Shown: positions 5,480 through 53,095 of the stretch, in pieces | Layout: each line of letters opens with the position of its first letter | Position numbering within the stretch: position 1 is the stretch's first letter | Assembly (NCBI RefSeq): GCF_900066015.1 | Contig: NZ_LN890656.1 | Location: forward strand, 682,001-746,000 | Origin: Candidatus Promineifilum breve | GTDB taxonomy: Bacteria; Chloroflexota; Anaerolineae; Promineifilales; Promineifilaceae | Length of the DNA: 64,000 nucleotides | Reading direction: 5' to 3' | Notes under the pieces: model-generated | The model's input: the letters and a program-made list of their open reading frames with translations, nothing else | The model's database searches: none | What the model was told of the DNA's origin: nothing | Position numbers and translations under genes: made by a program

Positions 5480-5818
5480 ATGGTGCGCGGTGACATCTAC
5501 GACGCGCGTCTCAGTCCGGTGGAAGGCTCGGAACAAGCCGGCACACGCCCCGTCGTCATCGTCAGCCGCGACGCGATCAATCACAACAGCCCGGTTATTG
5601 TGGTCATCCCCCTGACCGATGCCGCCAACGTCCGCCGCGTCTACCCCAACAACGTCCCCATCCCATCCGGCGAGGGGGGTCTGACGCTGGACTCGGTCGC
5701 CCTGGCCGGGCAGGTGCGGGCCATCGCCGTGACGCGACTGGTGCGACGGCGCGGAGCGCTCCCGCCGGCCACGATGAGCGCCATCGACCGGGCGCTACGC
5801 ATTACCCTGGATTTGTAG
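5480..5818 (+). CDS. mazF: MazF/PemK-family mRNA interferase toxin
   Basis: A 112-residue toxin with the family opening MVRGDIYDARLSPVEGSEQAGTRP followed by VVIVSRDAIN, the conserved Arg/Gly loop and VIPLTD, ending in DRALRITLDL. MazF proteins cleave single-stranded RNA at short sequence motifs. It is translationally coupled to the antitoxin upstream. Length and motifs are complete, so it is probably functional. Confidence 0.92.
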   Translation: MVRGDIYDARLSPVEGSEQAGTRPVVIVSRDAINHNSPVIVVIPLTDAANVRRVYPNNVPIPSGEGGLTLDSVALAGQVRAIAVTRLVRRRGALPPATMSAIDRALRITLDL

Positions 5819-5824
5819 CCGCGC

Positions 5825-7057
5825 TCAGTTGACCCACTCCCCACCGCGCATCAACGGCTCGGCCACGTCACCCAACAACCCATCCACGTCGATCTCGGCC
5901 GAGCCGATCATGAAATCCAAATGGGTCACGCTGCTGTTGCCGCCCATTTCGGCGAACGCGGCTTCGTCCAGCCCCTCGCAGCCGGCGATGCAGTTCTGAT
6001 AGGCCCGGCCCAGGGCCACGTGGCTGGACGCGTTTTCGTCGTACAGCGTATTGAGGAACAGCAGCCCCGATTGGGCGATGGGCGAGCTATGGGGCACCAG
6101 GGCCACCTCGCCCAGCCGCGCCGCGCCCTCGTCCGTCGCCAGATGCGAGCGCAATAACTCCTCGCCCCGCTCGGCGCTGAAGTCCACCACCTTGCCATCC
6201 TTGAACGTCAGGCTGAAGTTTTCGATGAGATTGCCGCTGTAATTGAGCGGCATGGTCGCCCGCACCGTGCCCTCGACCCGGTCGCGATGGGGCGCGGTGA
6301 AGACCTCTTCCGTCGGCAGGTTGGCGATGTTGCTAAAACCCAGGGCCGTCGGCGCGCCGCCGCCAATCCAGTGGTGATGGGCCGGCAGCCCCACGACCAG
6401 ATCGGTGCCGGGGCCGGTGAAGTGCAGCGCCGTGTACTGCTTCTCGTTCAGAAAGGCCGTGCGCGCCAGCAGTTGGTCGGAGTGGGCCTCCCAGGTAGCC
6501 ACCGGATCGGCCGCGTCAAGGCGCACGGTGCGGAAGATGGCCTGCCACAGGCGCTGCTGCTGCTCGGCCGGCGGCAAATCGGGGAAGACGCGCGCCGCCC
6601 AGCCCGCCGTGGCATAACCGACCACGCACCAGTTCACGGCGTCGGCCGACATCAGCCGCGCCAGGGGCATGGCCGCCATCCCCTCGGCTCGGCGCGTCGT
6701 CGCCACCAGTTCCGGGGCCACGTCTTTCAGCAATTCGGGATCGACGCCGATGATGGACAGGAAAGCCTGGCCGGCCTCGGCGTACTCCAGCCCGGCGTTC
6801 ACCGGCCACTGGCTGACCTCGGCGAATGAGTCGCGCGGGGCGTGGCGATAGCGCTCCAGCACCAGGAGCGGGTCGTTCCAGAGCACTTCGACCAGCCGCG
6901 CCCCGCCCTGATAGGCGTGGGCGGCCACGTGGCGCACCAGCGGCGCGGCCTCCAGCGGCGCGCGCACCATCAAGCGCTGTCCGGCTTGCAGGTTGAGGCC
7001 GACCTTAACGATCAATTCGGCGTAGGCAGCTAATTGGCGGTCAAATTCTGGGGTCAT
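5825..7057 (-). CDS. M29-family aminopeptidase (AmpS/PepS type)
   Basis: A 410-residue cytoplasmic metallo-aminopeptidase of the M29 (thermophilic aminopeptidase) family. Recognisable metal-site segments are NLPTEEVFTAPHRDRVEG, ARLGEVALVPHSSPI, LNTLYDENASSHVALG and THLDFMIGSAEID, supplying the Glu, His, Asp and Tyr residues. Length matches the family. The start MTPEFDRQ is supported by AAAAGGAG upstream; longer in-frame extensions run into a palindromic repeat. It converges on mazF with 6 nt between the stops. Confidence 0.93.
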   Translation of the reverse strand: MTPEFDRQLAAYAELIVKVGLNLQAGQRLMVRAPLEAAPLVRHVAAHAYQGGARLVEVLWNDPLLVLERYRHAPRDSFAEVSQWPVNAGLEYAEAGQAFLSIIGVDPELLKDVAPELVATTRRAEGMAAMPLARLMSADAVNWCVVGYATAGWAARVFPDLPPAEQQQRLWQAIFRTVRLDAADPVATWEAHSDQLLARTAFLNEKQYTALHFTGPGTDLVVGLPAHHHWIGGGAPTALGFSNIANLPTEEVFTAPHRDRVEGTVRATMPLNYSGNLIENFSLTFKDGKVVDFSAERGEELLRSHLATDEGAARLGEVALVPHSSPIAQSGLLFLNTLYDENASSHVALGRAYQNCIAGCEGLDEAAFAEMGGNSSVTHLDFMIGSAEIDVDGLLGDVAEPLMRGGEWVN

Positions 7058-7107
7058 GGGGTTACTCCTTTTCGCGTTTGTTTGCCGGATTATAGGGCTT
7101 AATCGCC

Positions 7108-7220
7108 AGAAACCGAGTTTTTTCTTGAAAACTCGGTTTCTTTCCGGGAATGACGGCCTATCTCCACCAACCAACACCCAACAAGAGAGAAACCGGGTTT
7201 TCAAGAAAAAACCCGGTTTC
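7108..7220. repeat. Paired AAACCGAG/AAACCGGG palindromes, copy 1
   Basis: Two hairpins 46 bp apart: 7108-7141 (arms AGAAACCGAGTTTT and its complement) and 7188-7220 (arms GAAACCGGGTTT and its complement). The same two-hairpin unit occurs at 20501-20585 with a shorter spacer. It sits in the intergenic region between divergent genes and may hold or disrupt their promoters. Confidence 0.85.
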
Positions 7221-7259
7221 GGGCGGCGATGTGTGGTACGATTAGCGGCAAGTGAAACC

Positions 7260-8633
<1,374 letters not shown>

Positions 8634-8636
<3 letters not shown>

Positions 8637-9246
8637 CGCGGAACTTCCAAGTTCCGCCTCTGCCACTTTCACCAGCGCGGAACACGTAACGCGGAACTTC
8701 CAGTTCCGCCTCTGCCACTTTCACCAGCGCGGAACACGTAACGCGGAACTTCCAGTTCCGCCTCTGCCACTTTCTCCTGCGCGGAACACGTAACGCGGAA
8801 CTTCCAGTTCCGCCTCTGTCACTTTCTCCAGCGCGGAACACGTAACGCGGAACTTCCAGTTCCGCCTCTGCCACTTTCACCGGTGCGGAACCCGTAACGC
8901 GGAACTTCCAGTTCCGCCTCTGTCACTTTCACCGGTGCGGAACCCGTAACGCGGAACTTCCAGTTCCGCCTCTGCCACTTTCACCAGCGCGGAACACGTA
9001 ACGCGGAACTTCCAGTTCCGCCTCTGCCACTTTCTCCGGCGCGGAACACGTAACGCGGAACTTCCAGTTCCGCCTCTGCCACTTTCACCGGCGCGGAACA
9101 CGTAACGCGGAACTTCCAGTTCCGCCTCTGCCACTTTCACCGGCGCGGAACACGTAACGCGGAACTTCCAGTTCCGCCGCTGTCACCTTCTCCAGAGCGG
9201 AACTGGAAGTTCCGCCTACACCCAGAGCGGAACTGGAAGTTCCGCC
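8634..9246. repeat. 52-bp minisatellite, 11 units, with inverted hairpin copies at its end
   Basis: Units begin at 8634, 8687, 8739, 8791, 8843, 8895, 8947, 8999, 9051, 9103 and 9155. The period is exactly 52 bp except for a 53-bp first unit. Each unit holds the 19-bp hairpin GCGGAACTTCCAGTTCCGC (one extra A in unit 1), followed by CTCTGCCACTTTC and a variable CACC(A/G)GCGCGG tail. After the last unit come two copies of the complementary hairpin GCGGAACTGGAAGTTCCGC. The array fills the gap after the sulfatase-maturase, including its stop codon. Translated frames across it are periodic and are not genes. Confidence 0.97.
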
Positions 9247-9377
9247 AACGCCATCAGGTCTATATCCCTTTTATATCCCCGGTCTATTGTTCCCCACCCC
9301 GTTCGCTCTACACTGTAAGCATGATCGGCCGCACCTTTTTAACCAAAGGGCGACCGTATAGAAAAGGAGAATGAACC

Positions 9378-9575
9378 ATGGCTTACAGTTACAAGAATTC
9401 CAAAGGCACGACCTACTATCTGCACGCCCGCGACGTGCGGTTGAACAACGACCGGCAGCGGACGATCTACTTCTTCGCCAAGGAACCACGCGACGGCGCG
9501 CTGGAGCGCGTCCCCGCCGGCTGGCAGGTGATGGAAGGGCGCAACGCTCTGCCCGTGCTGAGCAAGGATAAATAG
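9378..9575 (+). CDS. Small conserved-looking protein of unknown function (65 aa)
   Basis: A 65-residue basic protein: MAYSYKNSKGTTYYLHARD, then RTIYFFAKEPRDGAL and VPAGWQVMEGRNALPVL. A strong ribosome site (AAAAGGAGAATGAACC) precedes the ATG. Aromatic residues alternate with polar ones, suggesting a small beta-sheet fold. I have seen similar short proteins in Chloroflexota but cannot name a family or function. The stop is followed at once by a CAGTGGG heptamer array. Confidence 0.7.
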   Translation: MAYSYKNSKGTTYYLHARDVRLNNDRQRTIYFFAKEPRDGALERVPAGWQVMEGRNALPVLSKDK

Positions 9576-9656
9576 TAGACAGTGGGCAGTGGGCAGTGGG
9601 CAGTAACCACTGTCCACTGCCCACTATCCACTATCCACTACTCACTGTCCACTGCT
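9576..9656. repeat. Inverted CAGTGGG/CCCACTG heptamer array
   Basis: Forward CAGTGGG words (9580-9603) face reverse CCACTGC, CCACTAT and CCACTGT words (9607-9656). It separates two convergent genes and also encodes the last residues (AVDSE) and stop of the AMMECR1 gene on the minus strand. Confidence 0.9.
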
Positions 9657-10237
9657 TCAAAAAACGATTCCGTTGTAAACGCATACAACTGGGCCAGCTC
9701 AGGCCAGGCGTTGCCCGGCAAGCCCGCCTTCTGGCACAGCGCCCGCACGAACTCCCTGGCCCCCCAGCCATAGGCCGGGGCCACCTCCGGCAGCAGCAAC
9801 CCCCGCCGCCGCTCGCCCACAATGAGCAGCCCATCCTGCCCCACGGCGATCTCCTCCAGCCGCTCGACCGGCCGGAACGGCGACAGCACCGACACCTCGA
9901 TGAGCAATCCCGGCAACTCCTCGGCCGTCACCGGATTAAAGCGCGGGTCAACCGTGGCCGCTTTGATGGCCGCATCCTGCACGGCGGCATAGAGCGGGTC
10001 TTTGGCCTCGATCTGGCCGATGCAGCCGCGCAACTCCCCTTCCTCGAACGGCGCGCCAGCTTCCGGCCGCTCGCGTAGGGTCACGAAGACGGCCGCCGGT
10101 TCGCGCAATTGGGCGTCCTCCGGTTCATAGGCCAGGCGTTCGCCCGTCGCCACGTGATGGGCAATCGACTCTCTGGCCAAAGTCAGCAGCGCCCGGTGGC
10201 GCGCCGCTTGCGCCTCATCGGCTGAATGGTCGTTCAT
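9638..10237 (-). CDS. amrA: AMMECR1-domain protein (AmmeMemoRadiSam system protein A)
   Basis: A 199-residue AMMECR1-family protein with the hallmark LRGCIG at about residues 69-74. Also visible are FVTLRE and the DPRFNPVTAEELPGLLIEVSVLSP block, with VGQDGLLIV and LLLPEVAPAYGW further on. Bacterial members often accompany a Memo protein and a radical SAM enzyme. Neither partner is adjacent, and the radical SAM protein at 7.3-8.6 kb is of a different type. The gene starts 8 nt after the HAD gene, so they probably share a transcript. The final AVDSE and the stop codon come from repeat DNA. Confidence 0.88.
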   Translation of the reverse strand: MNDHSADEAQAARHRALLTLARESIAHHVATGERLAYEPEDAQLREPAAVFVTLRERPEAGAPFEEGELRGCIGQIEAKDPLYAAVQDAAIKAATVDPRFNPVTAEELPGLLIEVSVLSPFRPVERLEEIAVGQDGLLIVGERRRGLLLPEVAPAYGWGAREFVRALCQKAGLPGNAWPELAQLYAFTTESFFEAVDSE

Positions 10238-21403: not shown

Positions 21404-21530
21404 GAATCCACAGATTACACAGATTTCACAGATAAGAAAAGTGGTCAGTGGTCAGTGGTCAGTTTTCAGACTGCCCACTGACCACGCTCTTCAATCTGTG
21501 CCATCTGTGTAATCTGTGGATTCTCCTTTC
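21404..21530. repeat. Nested inverted repeat (ATTCCACAGATT arms outside, CAGTGGT arms inside)
   Basis: Outer arms carry nonamer words (CACAGATTA, CACAGATTT) facing their complements. Inside lie GTGGTCAGTGGTCAG words facing CTGCCCACTGACCAC. The left outer arm abuts the cytidylyltransferase start and the right arm encodes the mtnA C terminus on the minus strand. Confidence 0.92.
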
Positions 21531-33388: not shown

Positions 33389-34624
33389 TTATCCGCAGCC
33401 ACCCCCACCAGGCCCGCGCTTCACTTCCAGGACAATCCGCGGCGTGAACGCAATCGACTCGGCCGCCGTGGCGTTGGGCGCGGCGAAGGAATGGGCCGCG
33501 CCGACGGCCGCCGGGAAGGCAAAGGCCGGCCGGTCATCGGCCGCCCCGTCGATGGCATTGGCCGCCACGAACTCCTCGCCGGCAAACGTCCGAATCCAGT
33601 TGTTCAGCCCCCCTTCCAGGATATAGGCGCTGCGTACGCTCTCGGCCCGCAGGTATTGCCACGCCTCGGTCGCCGCCGCCTCGTCGTTACCCACCACCAC
33701 CACAACCGTGTTGGCCGGGGCGGCGTGGAGGTCTTCCAGCATTCCCGGCAGCGTTGCCAGGGGCGCGTGGCGGGCGTCCTGCAAATGGAACAGGTTGAAA
33801 TCGGCCTCGGAGCGCACGTCGAGGATGATCGTCTGCAGCGTGTCGTCGGTCATGGTCAGGGCCAGCTCGGCGGGGTGGATCTGCACCTCGCGGTTGGTCA
33901 GGCGGGCCGTCTCCGTGGCCTCGATGCGCGCCCACTTCTGCTCCGTCGTCGGCTGGCCGATGAAGGCCGTCAGCAGGGCCATGCCCAGCAGCCCGCCCCC
34001 GGCATAGAGGCGCCACTTCGGCTCCTTGCTCAGATCGCGCCCGCCGAAAATCTTCTCCAGTTGCTCGGCCCCCCAGAACATGAACAGGGCCATGAGCACG
34101 ATCAGCACCACGACCACGCCATAGGGCAGCCCCAACCATTCGGGAATGGTGAAACGGCCCATGTAGGACGAGTACCAGAACTCCTCATAGAAGCCGACCG
34201 TCTCGCCGAAGGCGAAGATGCCGAACATCACGCCCAGCACGAAGATCAGGCCGTCGATCTTGCCCACGGCCGCCGCCACCAGCGACGTGCCCGGGCAGAA
34301 GCCGCCGATGATAAAGCCCACGCCCATGATCAGCCCGCCGACGATGCCCGGCCACAGATAGGTCTCGTTGACGTAGACCAGACTGTAATCGAGCAGCCCC
34401 ACGGCCGAGGTGAAGAAGATGAGCACCATCGCCGTAACGATGGCCCCGAACATGACCTTGAGCACGGTCATGTCCTTGAAGTAGAACTGCGCCGCCAGCA
34501 GCGGCGAATTGGCGAAGCCCGAAATCTCCAGGGCAAAGCCGAAGGCGATGCCGATCAGCAGATAGATGACGTATTGGCCCCAATGGCCCATGATCTCGGC
34601 CAGTGGCAACGGGAACGGCGCCAT
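33389..34624 (-). CDS. YeeE/YedE sulfur transporter fused to a Cys-less rhodanese domain
   Basis: A 411-residue protein. The first 230 residues are a multi-helix YeeE/YedE (TsuA-like) domain with ISGFANSPLLAAQFYFKD and the signature GGFCPGTSLVAAAVGKIDG, whose Cys lies in the substrate path of thiosulfate carriers. The next 100 residues have a rhodanese outline (IILDVRSEADFNLFHLQDARHAPLATLPG), but the position of the sulfur-carrying Cys reads VVVVVGNDEAAATEAW. It is therefore probably not a sulfurtransferase. The chain ends GPGGGGCG, placing one Cys at the very C terminus. ATG follows GGGAGAAAG. It probably imports a sulfur compound for the block upstream. Confidence 0.88.
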   Translation of the reverse strand: MAPFPLPLAEIMGHWGQYVIYLLIGIAFGFALEISGFANSPLLAAQFYFKDMTVLKVMFGAIVTAMVLIFFTSAVGLLDYSLVYVNETYLWPGIVGGLIMGVGFIIGGFCPGTSLVAAAVGKIDGLIFVLGVMFGIFAFGETVGFYEEFWYSSYMGRFTIPEWLGLPYGVVVVLIVLMALFMFWGAEQLEKIFGGRDLSKEPKWRLYAGGGLLGMALLTAFIGQPTTEQKWARIEATETARLTNREVQIHPAELALTMTDDTLQTIILDVRSEADFNLFHLQDARHAPLATLPGMLEDLHAAPANTVVVVVGNDEAAATEAWQYLRAESVRSAYILEGGLNNWIRTFAGEEFVAANAIDGAADDRPAFAFPAAVGAAHSFAAPNATAAESIAFTPRIVLEVKRGPGGGGCG

Positions 34625-34642
34625 AATCTTTCTCCCGGAAGA

Positions 34643-34729
34643 GGAACCACAGATTTCACAGATTACACAGATTGAAGAACGACTTCTTTAAATCTGTGAA
34701 ATCTGTGTAATCTGTGGTTTCTTCCTCTC
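34643..34729. repeat. CACAGATTT / AAATCTGTG inverted array
   Basis: Forward CACAGATTTCACAGATTACA, centre TTGAAGAACGACTTCTTT, reverse AAATCTGTGAAATCTGTGTA. It lies between the two transporter genes of the same operon and could modulate readthrough. Confidence 0.9.
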
Positions 34730-35302
34730 TTAATTCCAAAGTTTCCTGACGAAGTAGGCCACGGCATAGCCCCCGGCGAAGACGGCGAACATGAACGCCC
34801 AACTGCCCACGGACAGCACCGCCCCGCCCGATAGCGCCTGGCCGCTGGTGCAGCCGCGGGCCATGCGCGCGCCATAGCCCATGATGGCCCCGCCCAGAAA
34901 AGCGAACAGCCAACGCACCCGCACCGGCGTGTGCGGGCCGCGCATCGTCTCGAAGCGGGAGCGGCCGAACACCCGCCCCGACAGCGCCCCGCCGATGAAC
35001 AGCCCGAAGAACACGAACACGACCCAGCTATCAAACGGGTTCGTCTCGCCGCCGGCCATGCTGGTCAGGTAGGCGGTGCGGTCAACGTGGCCGGAGGCGA
35101 AGAGGTCTTCCAGCCACACCACCAGCCGGTTCATGCCGCCCGACGCGCCCAGGCCGTTGCCGGTCAGGAAAAAGGTGGCGAAGAGCACCAGCCCCAGGAT
35201 CATGCCGCCCAGATAGGGGTGGGCATAGGGGCGGGCGACGGGGCGAACGGCCGTCTGCTCCGCCCGCGCCTCGTCCAGTTGTGGTGTCGCGATCGTTGTC
35301 AT
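34730..35302 (-). CDS. YeeE/YedE-family transporter, second protein
   Basis: A 190-residue membrane protein with about four helices and the YeeE/YedE hallmark GYGARMARGCTSGQALSGGAVLS, including the conserved Cys. LGGMILGLVLFATFFLTGNGLGASGG precedes it. Split transporters of this family are often two adjacent genes, so this and the next gene may form one thiosulfate or sulfide-type carrier. A ribosome site TTGGAG precedes the ATG. The last residues, VRKLWN, precede repeat DNA. Confidence 0.87.
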   Translation of the reverse strand: MTTIATPQLDEARAEQTAVRPVARPYAHPYLGGMILGLVLFATFFLTGNGLGASGGMNRLVVWLEDLFASGHVDRTAYLTSMAGGETNPFDSWVVFVFFGLFIGGALSGRVFGRSRFETMRGPHTPVRVRWLFAFLGGAIMGYGARMARGCTSGQALSGGAVLSVGSWAFMFAVFAGGYAVAYFVRKLWN

Positions 35303-35315
35303 AGTTGCTCCAAGA

Positions 35316-35600
35316 ATAAGATTTAGCTACGGATTTGGACGGATGGGACGGATTAAGAACGGATTTGTTGTTTATATCCGTATCATCCGTCTTAATCCGT
35401 AGCCAGTTCTTCACTGAGAAAGAATTGGCTACGGATTTGGACGGATGGGACGGATTAAGACCCGTTTTTATCCGTATCATCCGTCTCAATCCGTAGCCAA
35501 CTCTTCACTGATAAAGATTTAGCCACGGATTTGGACGGATGAGACGGATTAAGAACGGATTTTTCTTAAATCCGTATCATCCGTCCTAATCCGTAGCCAA
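35316..35600. repeat. Three tandem GGCTACGGATTTGGACGG inverted arrays
   Basis: Three successive hairpin blocks, each beginning (A/G)GC(T/C)ACGGATTTGGACGG and ending CCGT(C/A)..AATCCGTAGCC, with different centres. The last runs into the end of the seven-heme gene. It is inside the presumed operon. Confidence 0.92.
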
Positions 35601-38342
35601 TTCCTCATTCGTAATTCCTAATTCGTAATTCGTAATTTCCACGTCTTCCCAGCCCAACATCATCGCCCTAATCCCCGCCGTCGGCGTCGGGCCGGTGGTG
35701 GTCAGATAGACGTGGAGGATGATGAACGCCGCGAAGCTCCAGGCCACCAGCGAATGCAGCGGCCCCAGCCACGGCAGCCCGCCCACGGCGGCCACCGGCC
35801 CCGGAAAACGCTGTGCCGCCCACATGAGCGCCCCGGTAATAATCTGCGCCGGCAGCAGCACGTTGAGCACCATCACGTAGGTGATCTGCTGCAACGGGTT
35901 CAGCTTGCGGTCGCGCGTCTTCTCGTGCGGGTGGGGTTCGTCGCGGAAGATGCCGCGCAGGTAGTAGAGCGCCTGATCGAACGCCTCGTCGAAAAAGCCG
36001 CGCGGCCGGGGGATGAACTGCCTGATCTCGCCGCCGACCAGATGGTAGAACAGCGACAGCGCGGCGTTGATGACCAGCAACAGGGCCAGCACGTTGTGCA
36101 CCTGCACCACGTAGGCGAAGCTGAATATGCCGAACAGATCGGGCTTGTGGATGATCAACCCGGTGAACAGCAGCAGCAAGATGGCCGCCGTCTGGAGCCA
36201 ATGCCACAGCCGCTCGTAGAGGTCGTACATATAGACCTGCTGCGTCTCGGCCGTCGCTTCGGCCGCGTCCGCGTCCTGGGCGCGCCGCCGCGCCGCCAGC
36301 ACGCGCAGCCCGCCGTGGACGATGACGCCCAACGCCACGCCGCCGACCATCAGCGCCCCCAAAATGTCCACCCAGCGCGCCGCGTTGTGGCCCAACACGT
36401 AGAGACCGGCGTCGGCCGTGCGGGGCGTGAATTGCAGCGCGCCAGCCTCGCCGGCCGTCACTTCGCCCGGCCAACTGACCGGCCCGCCGGCGCTCAGCGT
36501 GGGCATTACCCCGCCCGGCGTGCGGTCGGACAGGGCCAACGACGCCGCCAGCCGCGACTCACCGCCGTGGCAGGCACGGCAATCGCGCGTGGCCCATTCG
36601 CCGCGGGCCGTGTTGTGGCTGATGCCGTAGGGCTGCACTTCGGCCTGGATGCGCGGCGCGTCCAGCCCGGCGGCCGACAACCGCCCGCCCACCGCCGCCG
36701 CCTGGGCCTCGGTACTGATTTCCAATTCGCTATACGAAAGTGCGCCGTCGCCGTCGGCATCAAAGGCGGCCACGATGGCCGGGGCGTAGGCGTCGCCGTC
36801 GAAGTAGGCCGCCCGCAAGAGGCGCAGCGGCACCGGCCGCGGCGGGTCGCCGTAGACCCAGTACCAACTGCTGATCAGATTGTACGGAGCCAGTTCAGTC
36901 GTGCCGTCGGCGTTGCTGCGCGGCAGCAGCGCCGGCTCGTAGCCGCTGATCAGCGCCGTGGGGCCGAAGGCTTGGCCGTCGAGGCCGCGATAGGCGCGCA
37001 CCGGCTGGCCGTCGGCCGTCAGCACCGTCCAGTCGATCGATTGCAGCGCCGGGGCATAGAGGCGCGGCGTGTGGCACGTCTCGCAGGCCAGGGCCTCCGT
37101 GTGGCGCTCCTTGTAGGGCAGCCAGTCGTGGCTGCCGTCGATGCTGTGGCACGATTCGCAGCGGCGCATGGAGCCGTCGAAGCCGGGGGCCAGTTGCCCC
37201 TGGGCGCTCTGCCCCTTGGCGAACTGGTGCAGCGGCCGGTAGATGTATTCGCCCAAATCGAGGCGGCGCGGGTCAAAGGTCAGATGTTCCGGGGCCTCGC
37301 CGCTGGTCGGCTGATAGTAGACGGGGTTGTTGAGCGAGTAATGGCAATCGGTGCAATCGACCACGCGCTCCAGGTGGATGTCCCACGACCGGCTGAGGGC
37401 GCTCTTGCCGGCCAGATTCAGCCCGCTCTGGTTGATGCGCTGCGGCGACATGATCTGGCCGGTGGTCAATGTCGTCCAGTCGCCGAAGGCCGTCGCGTCC
37501 AGCGTCAACGGCTCGGCCGCCGTGTGCACCACGCCGTGGCAACTGCCGCAATTGGCCGCCGTGGGGTCGCTCACGGTGACGAATTCGGGGCGGAGATTGC
37601 CCGCCGCATCAAACGCCGCCGTGTTATAGACCCATCTCCCCTGCTCCCCTGCCCCCCCGCTCCCCTGCGCCTCCACAATCCCCGTCTGCGCCAACGTCGC
37701 CGTCACCGCGTCGCCAAAGCGCCCCTCGGCCAGGGCCGCCACGCGGGCAGCGTTGTCGGCCGCCGGCAGGTGGCAGACGAAGCAGTTCAACTCGGCCGTG
37801 CCCGATGTCGCCCAGGCCCACGGCTGGGCCTCGCCGGTGGCCGGGTCGATCACCGTCCCATCGACGGCCAATGACGACTCGGCCAGGGCATCGCCGGCGC
37901 GGCTGGTGGTGGCCGGGCCGCCGCCGGCATGGCGCGCGCCGAACAGGCTCACCCATTCCGGCGTGGTCAGGTCAACCACCGCGTCCCCCTCCGGCGAGAG
38001 GTAGCGGTAGGTGATGGGATCCCAGCGGCCGAACAGCCCCGCGCCGCCCGTCGCGCCATAGGTCGATAGCCCGACGTCGCTATGGAAGTTGTTGGCGGCG
38101 ATGAAGGCCGTGTCGTGGCAGCCGCCGCAGGTGGTCATGGTCGAGACCGGCGCGCCGCTGTCCAGCACGTTGTCCCCGGCGGCGTCGAGCAGCGGGAAGA
38201 CAGGGTGGATAGGCGCGGCGGCGGGCGTGTCGGTGGCCGTTTCGGCCGGCGGCTCCGTCTGCGCCGCCACGCGGCCGAACAGCAGAAGCGCCGCCGCTAC
38301 CAGCAAAAGGAGAGTAATGAGAGACCTATATTTGGCGCTCAT
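35586..38342 (-). CDS. Seven-heme cytochrome c fused to a cytochrome b561-like domain
   Basis: A 918-residue protein. A signal segment is followed by a large extracytoplasmic part with seven CxxCH sites: CGGCH, CFVCH, CGSCH, CTDCH, CESCH, CETCH and CRACH. Between the sixth and seventh is an EF-hand-like loop, DADGDGALSYSELE. From about residue 640 there is a membrane anchor and then a four-helix cytochrome b domain (YERLWHWLQTAAILLLLFTGLIIH, VQVHNVLALLLVINA, LHSLVAWSFAAFIILHVY) with paired His. This could pass electrons between quinones and the octaheme protein. Repeat words are inserted at the residues AQGSGGAGEQG, and the last residues (ITNYELGITNEELATD) are also repeat-encoded. Confidence 0.85.
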   Translation of the reverse strand: MSAKYRSLITLLLLVAAALLLFGRVAAQTEPPAETATDTPAAAPIHPVFPLLDAAGDNVLDSGAPVSTMTTCGGCHDTAFIAANNFHSDVGLSTYGATGGAGLFGRWDPITYRYLSPEGDAVVDLTTPEWVSLFGARHAGGGPATTSRAGDALAESSLAVDGTVIDPATGEAQPWAWATSGTAELNCFVCHLPAADNAARVAALAEGRFGDAVTATLAQTGIVEAQGSGGAGEQGRWVYNTAAFDAAGNLRPEFVTVSDPTAANCGSCHGVVHTAAEPLTLDATAFGDWTTLTTGQIMSPQRINQSGLNLAGKSALSRSWDIHLERVVDCTDCHYSLNNPVYYQPTSGEAPEHLTFDPRRLDLGEYIYRPLHQFAKGQSAQGQLAPGFDGSMRRCESCHSIDGSHDWLPYKERHTEALACETCHTPRLYAPALQSIDWTVLTADGQPVRAYRGLDGQAFGPTALISGYEPALLPRSNADGTTELAPYNLISSWYWVYGDPPRPVPLRLLRAAYFDGDAYAPAIVAAFDADGDGALSYSELEISTEAQAAAVGGRLSAAGLDAPRIQAEVQPYGISHNTARGEWATRDCRACHGGESRLAASLALSDRTPGGVMPTLSAGGPVSWPGEVTAGEAGALQFTPRTADAGLYVLGHNAARWVDILGALMVGGVALGVIVHGGLRVLAARRRAQDADAAEATAETQQVYMYDLYERLWHWLQTAAILLLLFTGLIIHKPDLFGIFSFAYVVQVHNVLALLLVINAALSLFYHLVGGEIRQFIPRPRGFFDEAFDQALYYLRGIFRDEPHPHEKTRDRKLNPLQQITYVMVLNVLLPAQIITGALMWAAQRFPGPVAAVGGLPWLGPLHSLVAWSFAAFIILHVYLTTTGPTPTAGIRAMMLGWEDVEITNYELGITNEELATD
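37630..37680. repeat. CTCCCCTG words inserted in the seven-heme gene
   Basis: CTCCCCTGCTCCCCTGCCCC-type words in frame inside the coding sequence, between the second and third heme sites. The insertion keeps the reading frame. Confidence 0.85.
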
Positions 38343-38450
38343 AGTAATCAGTGGGTAGTGGGTAGTGGACAGTGGTCAGTGGTCAGTGGTCGGTTGGGTT
38401 AATTCGTAATTCGTAATTCCTAATTCCTAATTCCTAATTCTCAATCCGTC
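38343..38450. repeat. CAGTGG and GTAATTCC heptamer arrays
   Basis: GGTAGTGGACAGTGGTCAGTGG-like heptamers (38350-38392) and then TCGTAATTCCTAATTCCTAA words. The latter encode the RIEN end and stop of the octaheme gene on the minus strand. Confidence 0.9.
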
Positions 38451-39861
38451 CCCCCCACGTCATCGGATCCCCGTTATACCCCAGCGCCGCCCAATCCATG
38501 CGCCCGCTCGCGCCGTGGCAATCGGTGCATTGCAGCGCCTCTTCCTTGGGCTGCACCATGTGGCTCAGCGACCAGTACATCACCGTCGGCGCGAAGCCGT
38601 ATTCGCCACTGAAGGCCAGGCCGGAGTTCGGCTCGTTCAGCCGGAAGGCCGACTCCCAGTCGTAGGTGTCCCAGAAGCCGCCCTCGCCGGCGGTCATGGG
38701 CACCAGCAGGTATTGGTTCACCACGTCAAACGGCTGGCGGGCGGAGTGCACCTTGAACGGCCAGATTTTGGCGTCGGCGTCGGCGATGCTGCCCTGCGGC
38801 GTGTTCAGGCTGGTCACCTGCGTGGGGTCGATAATGTCGCCCAGCAGATAGCGGTCGGCCGCGCCGTTCCACCAGACGTAGGCCGGCTGGAATTCGTGCT
38901 CATAGACGAAATTGCCCTTGATCTTCAGGTAGACGTGGGGGTCTTCGGGCAAATCCTGCCCGGCCGTCGACCAGTCCCAATCCATCTTGGTGGCGTGGCG
39001 CAGCGCGCCCTCGGGGATGTGGCAAGTCTGGCAGGCCACGGCGTCGGTGTGGGCGTTCAGACGGGCATCGCTGTGCAAATCGGCGGCGTGGCAATTGGTG
39101 CAGGCCAGATCGTCCTTGGCCTGCGGGCTGACGGAGAGGATGTGGCCGGGAATCTGATGATCCTCGGTCACGTGGCAATCGACGCACTGGAAGCCCAACC
39201 GGCCCATGTGGACATCGACGCCCTCGTCGGGATAGTAGAGGCTCTCGTCCAGGTCGCCGTGCTTCACGGCGTTGCCGCCGCCGCCGTTGAAGTGGCAACT
39301 GCCGCAGTTCTGCCGCGTCGGCCGGCGCACGCTGCCCGCCGCGGCCGCCAGATCGATCCCCTCGACCGGGTTGCCCGCCTTGCCCTTGGCATATAGCGCC
39401 GTATCGGCATGGCAGGCCAGACAATCGACGGCCGTCTGCTGCTGGAAATCGAAGGAGGCGTCCGCCCAGCCATACCCGGCGTGGCACGACGTGCAGCCGG
39501 TCCAGTTGCCCTGGATGCCGATACAGAAATTGTTGATCTGATTCTTCTTGCCGACGGTCACCAGCGAGTCGCGGCCGGGCAATTGCACGGGTTGGCTCTC
39601 CCACGTCCAATGGGTCGTGGACATCATCTCCGTGGCCGCCGTTTCGTGGCATTCCAGGCAGGCAGCGGTCACGTCCGGCCCGGTGGCATAGGGGCCGGGC
39701 ATCAGCGCGGTGTGATCCGTATGGGCCGGAGTCGGTTGCACACCGGCCCACGGATCGGTGTTCGTTTCGTCCCCCGACGATGCGAACAGAAGGACGGGGA
39801 TCGCGATGATCAGGATCGTCACCAGTAGTCCGACGACCCAGATAAAACGAAACTCCTTCAT
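38434..39861 (-). CDS. Octaheme tetrathionate-reductase-family cytochrome c
   Basis: A 475-residue protein with an N-terminal membrane anchor and eight CxxCH sites: CLECH, CTSCH, CLACH, CGSCH, CVDCH, CTNCH, CQTCH and CTDCH. The segment NNFCIGIQGNWTGCTSCHAGYGW surrounds the active-site heme in the Shewanella octaheme tetrathionate reductase (OTR), and overall length agrees. OTR enzymes reduce tetrathionate, nitrite and hydroxylamine in vitro, so the natural substrate is open. Its neighbours (YeeE/YedE carriers, rhodanese outline) favour a sulfur oxyanion. It lies 41 nt downstream of the ArsR gene. Confidence 0.9.
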   Translation of the reverse strand: MKEFRFIWVVGLLVTILIIAIPVLLFASSGDETNTDPWAGVQPTPAHTDHTALMPGPYATGPDVTAACLECHETAATEMMSTTHWTWESQPVQLPGRDSLVTVGKKNQINNFCIGIQGNWTGCTSCHAGYGWADASFDFQQQTAVDCLACHADTALYAKGKAGNPVEGIDLAAAAGSVRRPTRQNCGSCHFNGGGGNAVKHGDLDESLYYPDEGVDVHMGRLGFQCVDCHVTEDHQIPGHILSVSPQAKDDLACTNCHAADLHSDARLNAHTDAVACQTCHIPEGALRHATKMDWDWSTAGQDLPEDPHVYLKIKGNFVYEHEFQPAYVWWNGAADRYLLGDIIDPTQVTSLNTPQGSIADADAKIWPFKVHSARQPFDVVNQYLLVPMTAGEGGFWDTYDWESAFRLNEPNSGLAFSGEYGFAPTVMYWSLSHMVQPKEEALQCTDCHGASGRMDWAALGYNGDPMTWGGRIEN

Positions 39862-39902
39862 GGTGGCTCCATTCCAGAGGTGGCGGGACCGCGGCCGGCC
39901 CC

Positions 39903-40235
39903 TTAATTTTCCATGTTGACAAGCCCCGACTGTCGGGCAAGCGAATCGCGAAGGATGTGGCGCATGGTGTCGAGCACCTCAATGACCCGCGGTTCGGCAA
40001 GGTAGTAAATGACCGTCGCCCCTTCGCGCTGGGCCACCACCAGGTGGCGGTCGCGCAACATTTGCAGATGACGGGACACGGTCGGTTGGGGCATGGCGAG
40101 ATCGGCGGCCAATTGGCTCACATGGCGCGGCCGTTCGTAGAGCGCATAGAGGATGTTCAGCCGTTTTGGGTCGCCCAGCGCCTGGCAAACACTGGCGTGG
40201 AGGAGAGTGAGTTCATCGATCGACGGCCGTTCCAT
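39903..40235 (-). CDS. ArsR-family transcriptional regulator
   Basis: A 110-residue winged-helix protein: VCQALGDPKRLNILYALYERPRHVSQLAADLAMPQPTVSRHLQML, then REGATVIYYLAEPRVIEVLDTM. This is the SmtB/ArsR fold in the BigR/SqrR-like group, which sense reactive sulfur through two cysteines. Only one Cys (Cys17) is present here, so sensing must differ or involve a partner. It is the first gene of the sulfur block and has an operator-like site just upstream, implying autoregulation. Confidence 0.88.
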   Translation of the reverse strand: MERPSIDELTLLHASVCQALGDPKRLNILYALYERPRHVSQLAADLAMPQPTVSRHLQMLRDRHLVVAQREGATVIYYLAEPRVIEVLDTMRHILRDSLARQSGLVNMEN

Positions 40236-40248
40236 ATGCGTGCCCCAT

Positions 40249-40270
40249 GTATTCGGATAAGTGAATACAT
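40249..40270. promoter_or_regulatory. Candidate ArsR/SqrR-type operator
   Basis: Inverted repeat TGTATTC-N8-GAATACA, 14 nt upstream of the regulator ATG. It contains exactly ATTC-N8-GAAT, the arrangement reported for SqrR/BigR-class sites. Its position suits repression of the whole minus-strand block. Confidence 0.6.
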
Positions 40271-40387: not shown

Positions 40388-41779
40388 CGCCCTTTGGGTA
40401 GTGTCCGCAATTGTGTGTAACCAGAAATCAACTACAGTATAGCCATTGCGACGGTCGGAGGTTACACGATGACAAAGCAGAAGAAAAGCCAATCACCGCA
40501 GGAGTATATGCCATCGGCGGAGACAGTGCAGGCCGAACTGGGCAAGGTGCAGTCGATGGACGATTTTTTCGGCAAGGAAGGGGTCTTTGCCCGGCTCTTC
40601 GCCTCGACGCTGGAACAGATGCTGGAGGGCGAACTGAGCGAACACCTGGGCTACGAGCCGTATGAAGCCGCCGGCCGTAACTCCGGCAACAACCGCAACG
40701 GGCATTATACCAAGAAGGTGCGCACGTCGACCGGCCAGACGAGCATCCAGGTACCACGCGACCGCAACGGCGCGTTCGAGCCGCAGGTGTTGGCCAAATA
40801 TGCCGGCAACACCAACGAATTGGAGGAGAAGGTGCTGGCCATGTACGCCCGCGGGCTGTCGACCCGCGACATCGCCGGGACGCTGGCCGAGCTGTATGGG
40901 GTAGACATCTCGGCGACGACCATCAGCACCATCACCGAGAAGGTGTGGCCGCTGGTGGAGGCGTGGCAGAGCCGGCCGTTGGCGCGCATTTACCCCATCG
41001 TCTACCTGGATGCCATCCATATCAAGCTGCGGCGGGAGGGCCGCGTGGCCAACACGGCTGTCTACAACGTTCTGGGCGTGGATATGGAGGGCCACCGGGA
41101 CATTCTGGGGCATTGGCTGGGCGACGGCGGCGAAGGGGCCAACTTCTGGCTGAGCGTCCTGACCGACCTGCAAAACCGGGGCGTAGCCGACATCTTCCTG
41201 GCCTGTATCGATGGGCTGAACGGTTTCAGCGAGGCCATCCGGGCCGTTTTCCCGCAGACCCAGGTGCAGCGCTGCGTCATCCACCAGATTCGCAGCAGCC
41301 TGAAATACGTCTCCTGGACCGACCACAAGGCGTTCGTCGCCGACCTCAAGCGCGTCTATCGCGCGGCCACACGGGACGAGGCCCAGTTGAACCTGGAGCA
41401 GCTAGGCCAGCGCTGGGGGACAAAGTACCCCATGGCCATTCGTTCCTGGCAGACCAACTGGCCGGAGGTCTCGACCTTCTTCGACTATCCGGCTGAGATT
41501 AGGCGCATCATCTACACCACCAACAGCGTGGAGAGTTACCATCGCCAGTTGCGCAAGGTAATGAAGACCAAGGCCGCCTTCCCCACCCCCGAGGCGGCCC
41601 GTAAGCTGCTGTACCTGGCCACGCAACGAGTCACCCGTGGCTGGACAGCCCCCATCCGCGATTGGGCCAAGATCCTCAACCAACTGGCCATTCGGTTTGA
41701 AGGACGGTTTGAGCTATGATGGCCTGGCCATCACCAAATGGTGTTTACACACAATTTAGGACAGACCCGCCCTTTGGGT
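40388..41779. mobile_element. IS256-family insertion sequence with flanking 12-bp direct repeats
   Basis: Terminal inverted repeats of about 22 bp, left TGTCCGCAATTGTGTGTAAC and right (complement) TGTCCTAAATTGTGTGTAAA. The 12-bp direct repeat CGCCCTTTGGGT lies at both outer edges (40388-40399 and 41768-41779), longer than the usual 8-9 bp, perhaps by chance extension. Element body about 1.37 kb with one transposase gene. It seems to have landed inside a repeat array. Confidence 0.85.
40469..41719 (+). CDS. IS256-family (Mutator-type) transposase
   Basis: A 416-residue intact transposase: FARLFASTLEQMLEGELSEHLGYE, RNGHYTKKVRTSTG and the DDE residues in VYLDAIHIKLR (Asp), FLACIDGLNGF (Asp) and TTNSVESYHRQLRK (Glu). 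CVIHQIRSSLKYVSW is the conserved C/H segment. No frameshift is seen and both ends are present, so the element could be mobile. Confidence 0.97.
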   Translation: MTKQKKSQSPQEYMPSAETVQAELGKVQSMDDFFGKEGVFARLFASTLEQMLEGELSEHLGYEPYEAAGRNSGNNRNGHYTKKVRTSTGQTSIQVPRDRNGAFEPQVLAKYAGNTNELEEKVLAMYARGLSTRDIAGTLAELYGVDISATTISTITEKVWPLVEAWQSRPLARIYPIVYLDAIHIKLRREGRVANTAVYNVLGVDMEGHRDILGHWLGDGGEGANFWLSVLTDLQNRGVADIFLACIDGLNGFSEAIRAVFPQTQVQRCVIHQIRSSLKYVSWTDHKAFVADLKRVYRAATRDEAQLNLEQLGQRWGTKYPMAIRSWQTNWPEVSTFFDYPAEIRRIIYTTNSVESYHRQLRKVMKTKAAFPTPEAARKLLYLATQRVTRGWTAPIRDWAKILNQLAIRFEGRFEL

Positions 41780-52944: not shown

Positions 52945-53095
52945 AGAGAATCCACAGATTTCACAGATTTCACAGATTTAAGGTAGTGAACAGTGGACAG
53001 TGGGGAGTGGACAGTGGGGAGTGGACAGTGGGCAGTCTGCCCACTGTCCACTCCTTCCAAATCTGTGGAATCTGTGAAATCTGTGGATTCTCTTC
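52945..53095. repeat. Nested inverted repeat (CACAGATTT outside, CAGTGGGGAGTGGA inside)
   Basis: GAATCCACAGATTTCACAGA on the left and TCTGTGAAATCTGTGGATTC on the right. Inside, GAACAGTGGACAGTGGGGAG faces CTGCCCACTGTCCACTC. Same plan as 21404-21530. It ends 13 nt before the next ATG. Confidence 0.93.

Follow-up and report, generated by a model that had tools for sequence, protein, structure and literature searches.

The window analysed is a stretch of 64,000 nucleotides from Candidatus Promineifilum breve, whose genome comprises 5.03 Mb in three contigs. Five genes follow one another on the minus strand, as described in an earlier note on this DNA; all five reading frames are open, their coordinates are correct and the assigned families score above curated cut-offs. 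HB7 designates the fusion of a heptaheme protein with a cytochrome b, YeeC the C-terminal half of YeeE, and YeeN the N-terminal half of YeeE with a rhodanese domain. Labels with L denote loci and labels with G denote genomes. The genes and features are listed with their window coordinates and strand.

40248..40269, no strand: candidate operator of the ArsR type, palindrome TGTATTCacttatcCGAATACA, some 13 nt ahead of the ArsR start, conserved upstream of ArsR
39903..40235, minus strand: ArsR/SmtB-family regulator (ArsR), 110 aa, one conserved Cys (C17); NF033788, 81.6 bits
38434..39861, minus strand: octaheme tetrathionate reductase family cytochrome (OTR), 475 aa, N-terminal membrane anchor, eight CXXCH motifs; TIGR04315
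39523..39525, minus strand: codon of OTR Cys113 (= Cys64 of 1SP3); UGA at this position in L037 and L038
39262..39264, minus strand: codon of OTR Lys200 (= Lys153 of 1SP3, ligand of catalytic heme 2), from the 1SP3 alignment
35586..38342, minus strand: HB7, 918 aa, with an OTR-fold heptaheme part (residues ~43-657) and an FdnI/PhsC-type cytochrome b (~701-916), assigned by model, Foldseek, VIA and hhalign
34730..35302, minus strand: YeeC, PmpA-like, 190 aa, Cys151 = TsuA Cys293; PF04143 positions 158-309
33389..34624, minus strand: YeeN, PmpB-like (Cys110), with an extracytoplasmic pseudo-rhodanese and a C-terminal GGGCG tail, 411 aa; PF04143, PF00581
34295..34297, minus strand: codon of YeeN Cys110 (TsuA Cys91 equivalent); UGA in four distinct homologues
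33395..33397, minus strand: codon of YeeN tail Cys410 (GGGCG); five distinct homologues have UGA here and a SECIS-like hairpin after it

Two intergenic gaps of the operon hold palindromic repeats, with three tandem hairpins between HB7 and YeeC, so that one transcript is not certain. The repeats are dispersed and fall into the CACAGATTACACAGATTTCACAGATT and CTACGGATTnnGACGGATGATACGGAT families (window 34625-34729, 35303-35585, 17215, 21404-21523 and 52948-53090). A Mutator-family transposase gene lies about 200 bases upstream of the operator (window 40469-41719, plus strand).

OTR exceeded the family cut-off in 57 of the 298 genomes of the class. The order OTR-HB7-YeeC-YeeN, on the same strand, was found at 43 of the 52 class-A OTR loci, in most cases preceded by ArsR; eight others are interrupted by contig ends and one (L054) is rearranged. 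The earlier note had named a lack of conserved gene order in related genomes as one thing that would refute its reading; such order is present, far above chance. Chance and contamination are ruled out as its source, because the 43 loci span many families and two single-contig genomes (G027, G213). In the same-genus genome G281 the module is located on a contig of 7021 bases. A full-length YeeE-rhodanese gene was present in 49 of 296 class genomes, each of which (49/49) also has OTR. When species genomes were scanned with the HB7 alignment, 345 loci were obtained. Nearly all of the best 80 bear a Chloroflexota or Anaerolineae MAG label, including Ca. Desulfolinea nitratireducens, and the gene order is the same in most of them. 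Among 400 sampled genomes of the phylum, HB7 was restricted to this class, and no HB7 relatives were found in viral contigs. No further gene family was a consistent neighbour among the loci compared. The five genes are a conserved unit.

In L054 (genome G260) the genes stand in the order YeeC-YeeN-OTR, and HB7 does not adjoin them. Genes of the suf system occur within 8 kb of some Anaerolineae modules; their placement is inconsistent, and they were therefore not counted in the module.

OTR belongs to the family after which it is named, with 546 bits against TIGR04315 (curated cut-off 375) and 508 bits over 418 residues against 1SP3. The earlier note had counted eight CXXCH motifs in the octaheme protein and seven in the heptaheme protein; both counts are right, and all motifs are invariant in the alignments. 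K200 and C113 are likewise invariant in an alignment of 24 OTRs of two types (A3). K200 aligns with Lys153 of 1SP3 and, by analogy, is predicted to ligate heme 2. Judged from its sequence, the N-terminus is a hydrophobic anchor. Anaerolineae also have a second, divergent type of OTR, whose gene is followed by a separate cytochrome b gene.

The AF2 model of HB7 has a pLDDT of 82, and its best Foldseek match is 1sp3, followed by 1kqf_C (FdnI) and HyaC. Residues 43-657 align with 1SP3 over 339 residues at 4.4 A (VIA-align 2 Z 13.6). Residues 701-916 align with FdnI (1kqf_C) over 192 residues at 3.1 A with Z 13.8, a value that is less telling alone, as helical bundles score high, and with which Pfam and NCBIfam agree. 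Profile comparison with OTR (hhalign) gave a probability of 98%. Hemes 1-7 of HB7 pair with OTR hemes 1, 3, 4, 5, 6, 7 and 8, the first two pairings being the least certain. In the full profile alignment HB7 has no counterpart of OTR heme 2, Lys153 or Cys64, and it scores 23.6 bits where the OTR cut-off is 375. HB7 thus has an OTR-like fold, and a catalytic OTR was rejected as its identity. By alignment and model, its heptaheme domain is an OTR-fold paralogue that has lost the catalytic heme 2, the Lys and the Cys. The earlier note had overlooked this paralogy, as well as the operator, the pseudo-rhodanese and the Cys/Sec tail at the C-terminus of YeeN. Outside its motifs the heptaheme part has exactly seven invariant His residues (H46, H87, H323, H372, H405, H414, H576), which fits seven bis-His hemes. 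An EF-hand-like loop, DADGDGALSYSEL, is conserved in the family within the OTR-like domain (HB7 residues ~520-545, window ~36705-36785) and may be a Ca site.

The cytochrome b part of HB7 is of the FdnI/HyaC/PhsC type, with 92 bits against PF01292 (cut-off 30.1), invariant His residues (H714, H732, H749, H863, H877) and a matching fold; it remains below the cut-off for the PhsC thiosulfate reductase cytochrome b (NF011582, 130 vs 204 bits). The membrane partner facing the quinone that the earlier note had proposed is borne out, OTR being paired with a quinone-type cytochrome b. That note had also described OTR as a stand-alone soluble enzyme, which holds for Shewanella; a cytochrome b adjoins it in Paracoccus and Photobacterium, as published for an Ignavibacterium with cytochrome b561 (PMC7509429). 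Three partner arrangements were encountered: OTR with HB7; OTR beside a separate cytochrome b, as in Paracoccus, Photobacterium, the Ignavibacterium and other Anaerolineae; and, in L091, a single protein that joins OTR, a second multiheme part and a NapC domain. They support an exchange of electrons between OTR and quinone, and we consider it very probable that the module has such an exchange. The L091 protein (5742-10151) comprises 1469 aa with 22 CXXCH motifs, its third part being a NapC/NirT domain. In L174 (Paracoccus ferrooxidans pFER4), a suf operon that includes two cysteine desulfurases lies immediately before OTR and a cytochrome b lacking annotation.

The two YeeE genes match PF04143 with 83 and 60 bits (cut-off 27), and the rhodanese domain matches PF00581 with 45 bits (cut-off 22.2). 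YeeC covers positions 158-309 of the family profile and 231-326 of TsuA, YeeN positions 11-210 and 6-118, respectively. As they match opposite halves, the two genes encode two halves of one carrier, and not two YeeE/YedE carriers as first supposed; the sulfur-compound carrier as such stands, as a member of the thiosulfate/sulfane-sulfur transport family. Each half holds one conserved Cys, as in the split PmpA/PmpB form: C151 in YeeC, with a conserved RGCTSGQ motif, and C110 in YeeN. The corresponding TsuA residues, Cys293 and Cys91, are indispensable for transport (PMC11582611). Both halves stay below the cut-off of the curated TsuA family (NF052577, 19 and 36.6 vs 400 bits). The Foldseek matches listed for the YeeE half concern only the rhodanese domain, so that the link of this half to TsuA is drawn from its sequence.

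In the YeeE-rhodanese alignment (A5), C110, G408, G409, C410 and G411 of YeeN are invariant, and GGCG ends nearly every homologue. The rhodanese domain is not an active one, as the active-site loop (VMSNDE/VVGNDE) has no Cys. Over 53 sequences the mean number of K+R per loop is 0, 2.3, 0.1, 0.9, 1.1 (with 3.3 acidic residues) and 3.2, an alternation that matches a topology of six helices whose two termini lie outside. By these charges the rhodanese domain and the tail should face the OTR side.

Frames were read through UGA in approximately 140 loci. In the YeeE-rhodanese genes UGA is confined to two positions, C110 (in four distinct loci) and the tail Cys (in five), the tail being of the Cys type in 92 frames. 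About 16 nt beyond the UGA of the tail comes a G+C-rich hairpin of 6-7 bp with a short loop. In OTR, UGA replaces C113 in the divergent L037 and L038 (INNF-U-IS), the only non-heme position so replaced in the divergent OTRs, and the OTR of these two loci is likely a selenoprotein. A UGA at a heme Cys of the L012 OTR was set aside; it lies on a short contig and may be a sequencing error. Both tRNA-Sec and SelB were found in G151, G241, G160 and G199. G200 has tRNA-Sec and a SelB fragment, and G124 has SelB at a contig start but no clear tRNA-Sec. The Cys-type genome G107 has no clear tRNA-Sec or SelB. Given the UGA, the hairpin and the Sec machinery in the genomes tested (that of L146 excepted), the tails of these homologues are predicted selenoprotein tails. 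Cys/Sec exchange usually marks nucleophilic or redox-active positions. The confinement of UGA to Cys110, the tail Cys and Cys64 of the divergent OTRs thus points to thiol/selenol chemistry at these sites. Sec members of both families were listed earlier, without this tail or mechanism (PMC13188914).

ArsR scores about 82 bits against HTH_metalloreg (NF033788, cut-off 55) and stays below the cut-offs of BigR (41 vs 155) and TsoR (63 vs 115). One Cys is conserved in every ArsR homologue listed. A dithiol regulator of the BigR/SoxR type was rejected on the single Cys and the BigR score, and the sulfur-type regulator of the earlier note is not established. Of 64 loci, 52 carry the palindrome TATTCGnnTAnnCGAATA ahead of ArsR with no more than two mismatches (0.1 expected from shuffles), mostly at a distance of 27-60 nt. 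In the genome of the window it is the sole match besides two sites with three mismatches; this near-uniqueness suggests that ArsR is a local autoregulator acting at a candidate operator.

The Anaerolineae operon appears to wire an outside-facing octaheme enzyme to the quinone pool and to a split sulfur-import channel, an arrangement common to many filamentous and sediment members. On balance we lean towards reading the five genes as a membrane-bound respiratory and sulfur-handling module, in which S-S bonds would be reduced outside the membrane with electrons from menaquinol and the product imported. The cytochrome b part of HB7 would trade electrons with the menaquinone pool, and its outside-facing heptaheme part, devoid of the catalytic heme, would pass them to the membrane-anchored OTR. 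There, the Lys-ligated heme 2 beside a reactive Cys would reduce an S-S compound, most likely tetrathionate to thiosulfate. YeeC and YeeN may pair as one channel through which the product, thiosulfate or sulfane sulfur, enters the cell, and ArsR would bind the upstream palindrome and so repress the operon to which it belongs. The GGCG tail of the outside-facing pseudo-rhodanese could serve as a flexible, swinging arm, shuttling sulfur between OTR and the channel Cys; that such a Cys/Sec-tipped arm hands sulfur over directly, with quinol-driven S-S cleavage and import physically coupled in one complex, would be a novel type of sulfur relay outside the membrane, and we regard it as rather doubtful.

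A sulfur substrate for the module is probable, and the reductive direction only slightly less so. Tetrathionate specifically, as proposed in the earlier note, is tentatively retained as the leading candidate; it is a candidate only, as Shewanella OTR also takes nitrite and hydroxylamine (PMC4484225). These gradings, and that for the exchange with quinone, are judgements and were not computed.

It is unlikely that the module runs in the oxidative direction, with thiosulfate, sulfide or persulfide oxidised, the electrons passed to quinone and the tail presenting the substrate. The GGCG tail is indeed SoxY-like, and cytochromes b of the FdnI/HyaC type act as quinone reductases. OTR, however, is a known reductase, the thiosulfate/tetrathionate couple lies high relative to menaquinone, and no Sox, Dsr or Hdr genes were found as conserved neighbours of the module, even if YeeE-like SoxT proteins do function in sulfur oxidation (PMC11582611).

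A nitrogen module, in which OTR would reduce nitrite or hydroxylamine with quinol electrons for ammonification or detoxification and the YeeE pair would only supply sulfur, is about equally unlikely. The sulfur carrier is a fixed partner (co-occurrence 49/49), the thiol/selenol positions in OTR and the carrier fit sulfur chemistry, and no nitrogen genes were found as conserved neighbours of the module. These points stand against the reduction of both nitrogen compounds by the Shewanella enzyme in vitro (PMC4484225) and the counting of OTR among DNRA genes (PMC11879220). Highly unlikely is a role in stress or sensing, in which OTR and HB7 would detoxify reactive sulfur (polysulfide, S-sulfo-thiols) without energy gain and the YeeE pair would signal to ArsR, as the YeeE protein SoxT1B signals to the repressor SoxR (PMC11582611): a dedicated local operator-like palindrome is present, but ArsR has no second Cys of the SoxR/BigR type and a dedicated quinone-linked conduit suggests respiratory flux.

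The preferred reading of menaquinol-linked S-S reduction gives OTR, whose physiological role has been described as cryptic (PMC11024163), a concrete and testable role through a conserved operon with a dedicated quinone-type partner, a sulfur channel and a regulator in a widespread, mostly uncultured class. If true, filamentous Chloroflexota of wastewater and sediments would join the organisms that respire or scavenge polythionates. OTR genes in Anaerolineae were reported previously (PMC7887784, PMC8359478), so that the claim of a module unrecognised in the phylum does not extend to OTR itself; in the mainly open-access literature no report was found of an OTR-like heptaheme-cytochrome b fusion, a tailed pseudo-rhodanese YeeE half or the five-gene module.

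Compared with known systems, YeeN has a C-terminal Gly-rich Cys tail that is like that of SoxY in appearance only: YeeN has no SoxY domain by Pfam and is not a SoxY protein, its tail sits on a membrane protein, and this tail ends in GGCG, not GGCGG. With TsuA/YeeE and the split PmpA/PmpB (PMC11582611, PMC11073785) the carrier shares the same two conserved Cys, one per half; here the halves are longer, and the N-terminal one bears the outside-facing pseudo-rhodanese and GGCG tail. A PF01292-type cytochrome b adjoins OTR here as in Ignavibacteriae Ch128a (PMC7509429), Paracoccus and Photobacterium, where it is a small separate gene, whereas in the present operon a fusion joins it to an OTR-fold domain with seven hemes, and the YeeE halves follow. 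Like HB7, the electron conduit MmcA of Methanosarcina is a seven-heme OTR relative reported to have lost the catalytic heme 2 and its Lys (PMC11024163). MmcA is encoded with Rnf, while HB7 is fused to cytochrome b and adjoins an OTR with an intact active site; HB7 would be, after MmcA, a second OTR relative that has become purely a conduit for electrons. The OTR of Shewanella oneidensis (1SP3, SO4144; TIGR04315) belongs to the same family as the OTR described here, which retains the eight hemes and the equivalents of Lys153 and Cys64. The Shewanella enzyme is soluble and thought to be fed via CymA and STC (PMC4484225), whereas the present one has an N-terminal hydrophobic anchor and shares its operon with a sulfur carrier and a partner of the quinone type.
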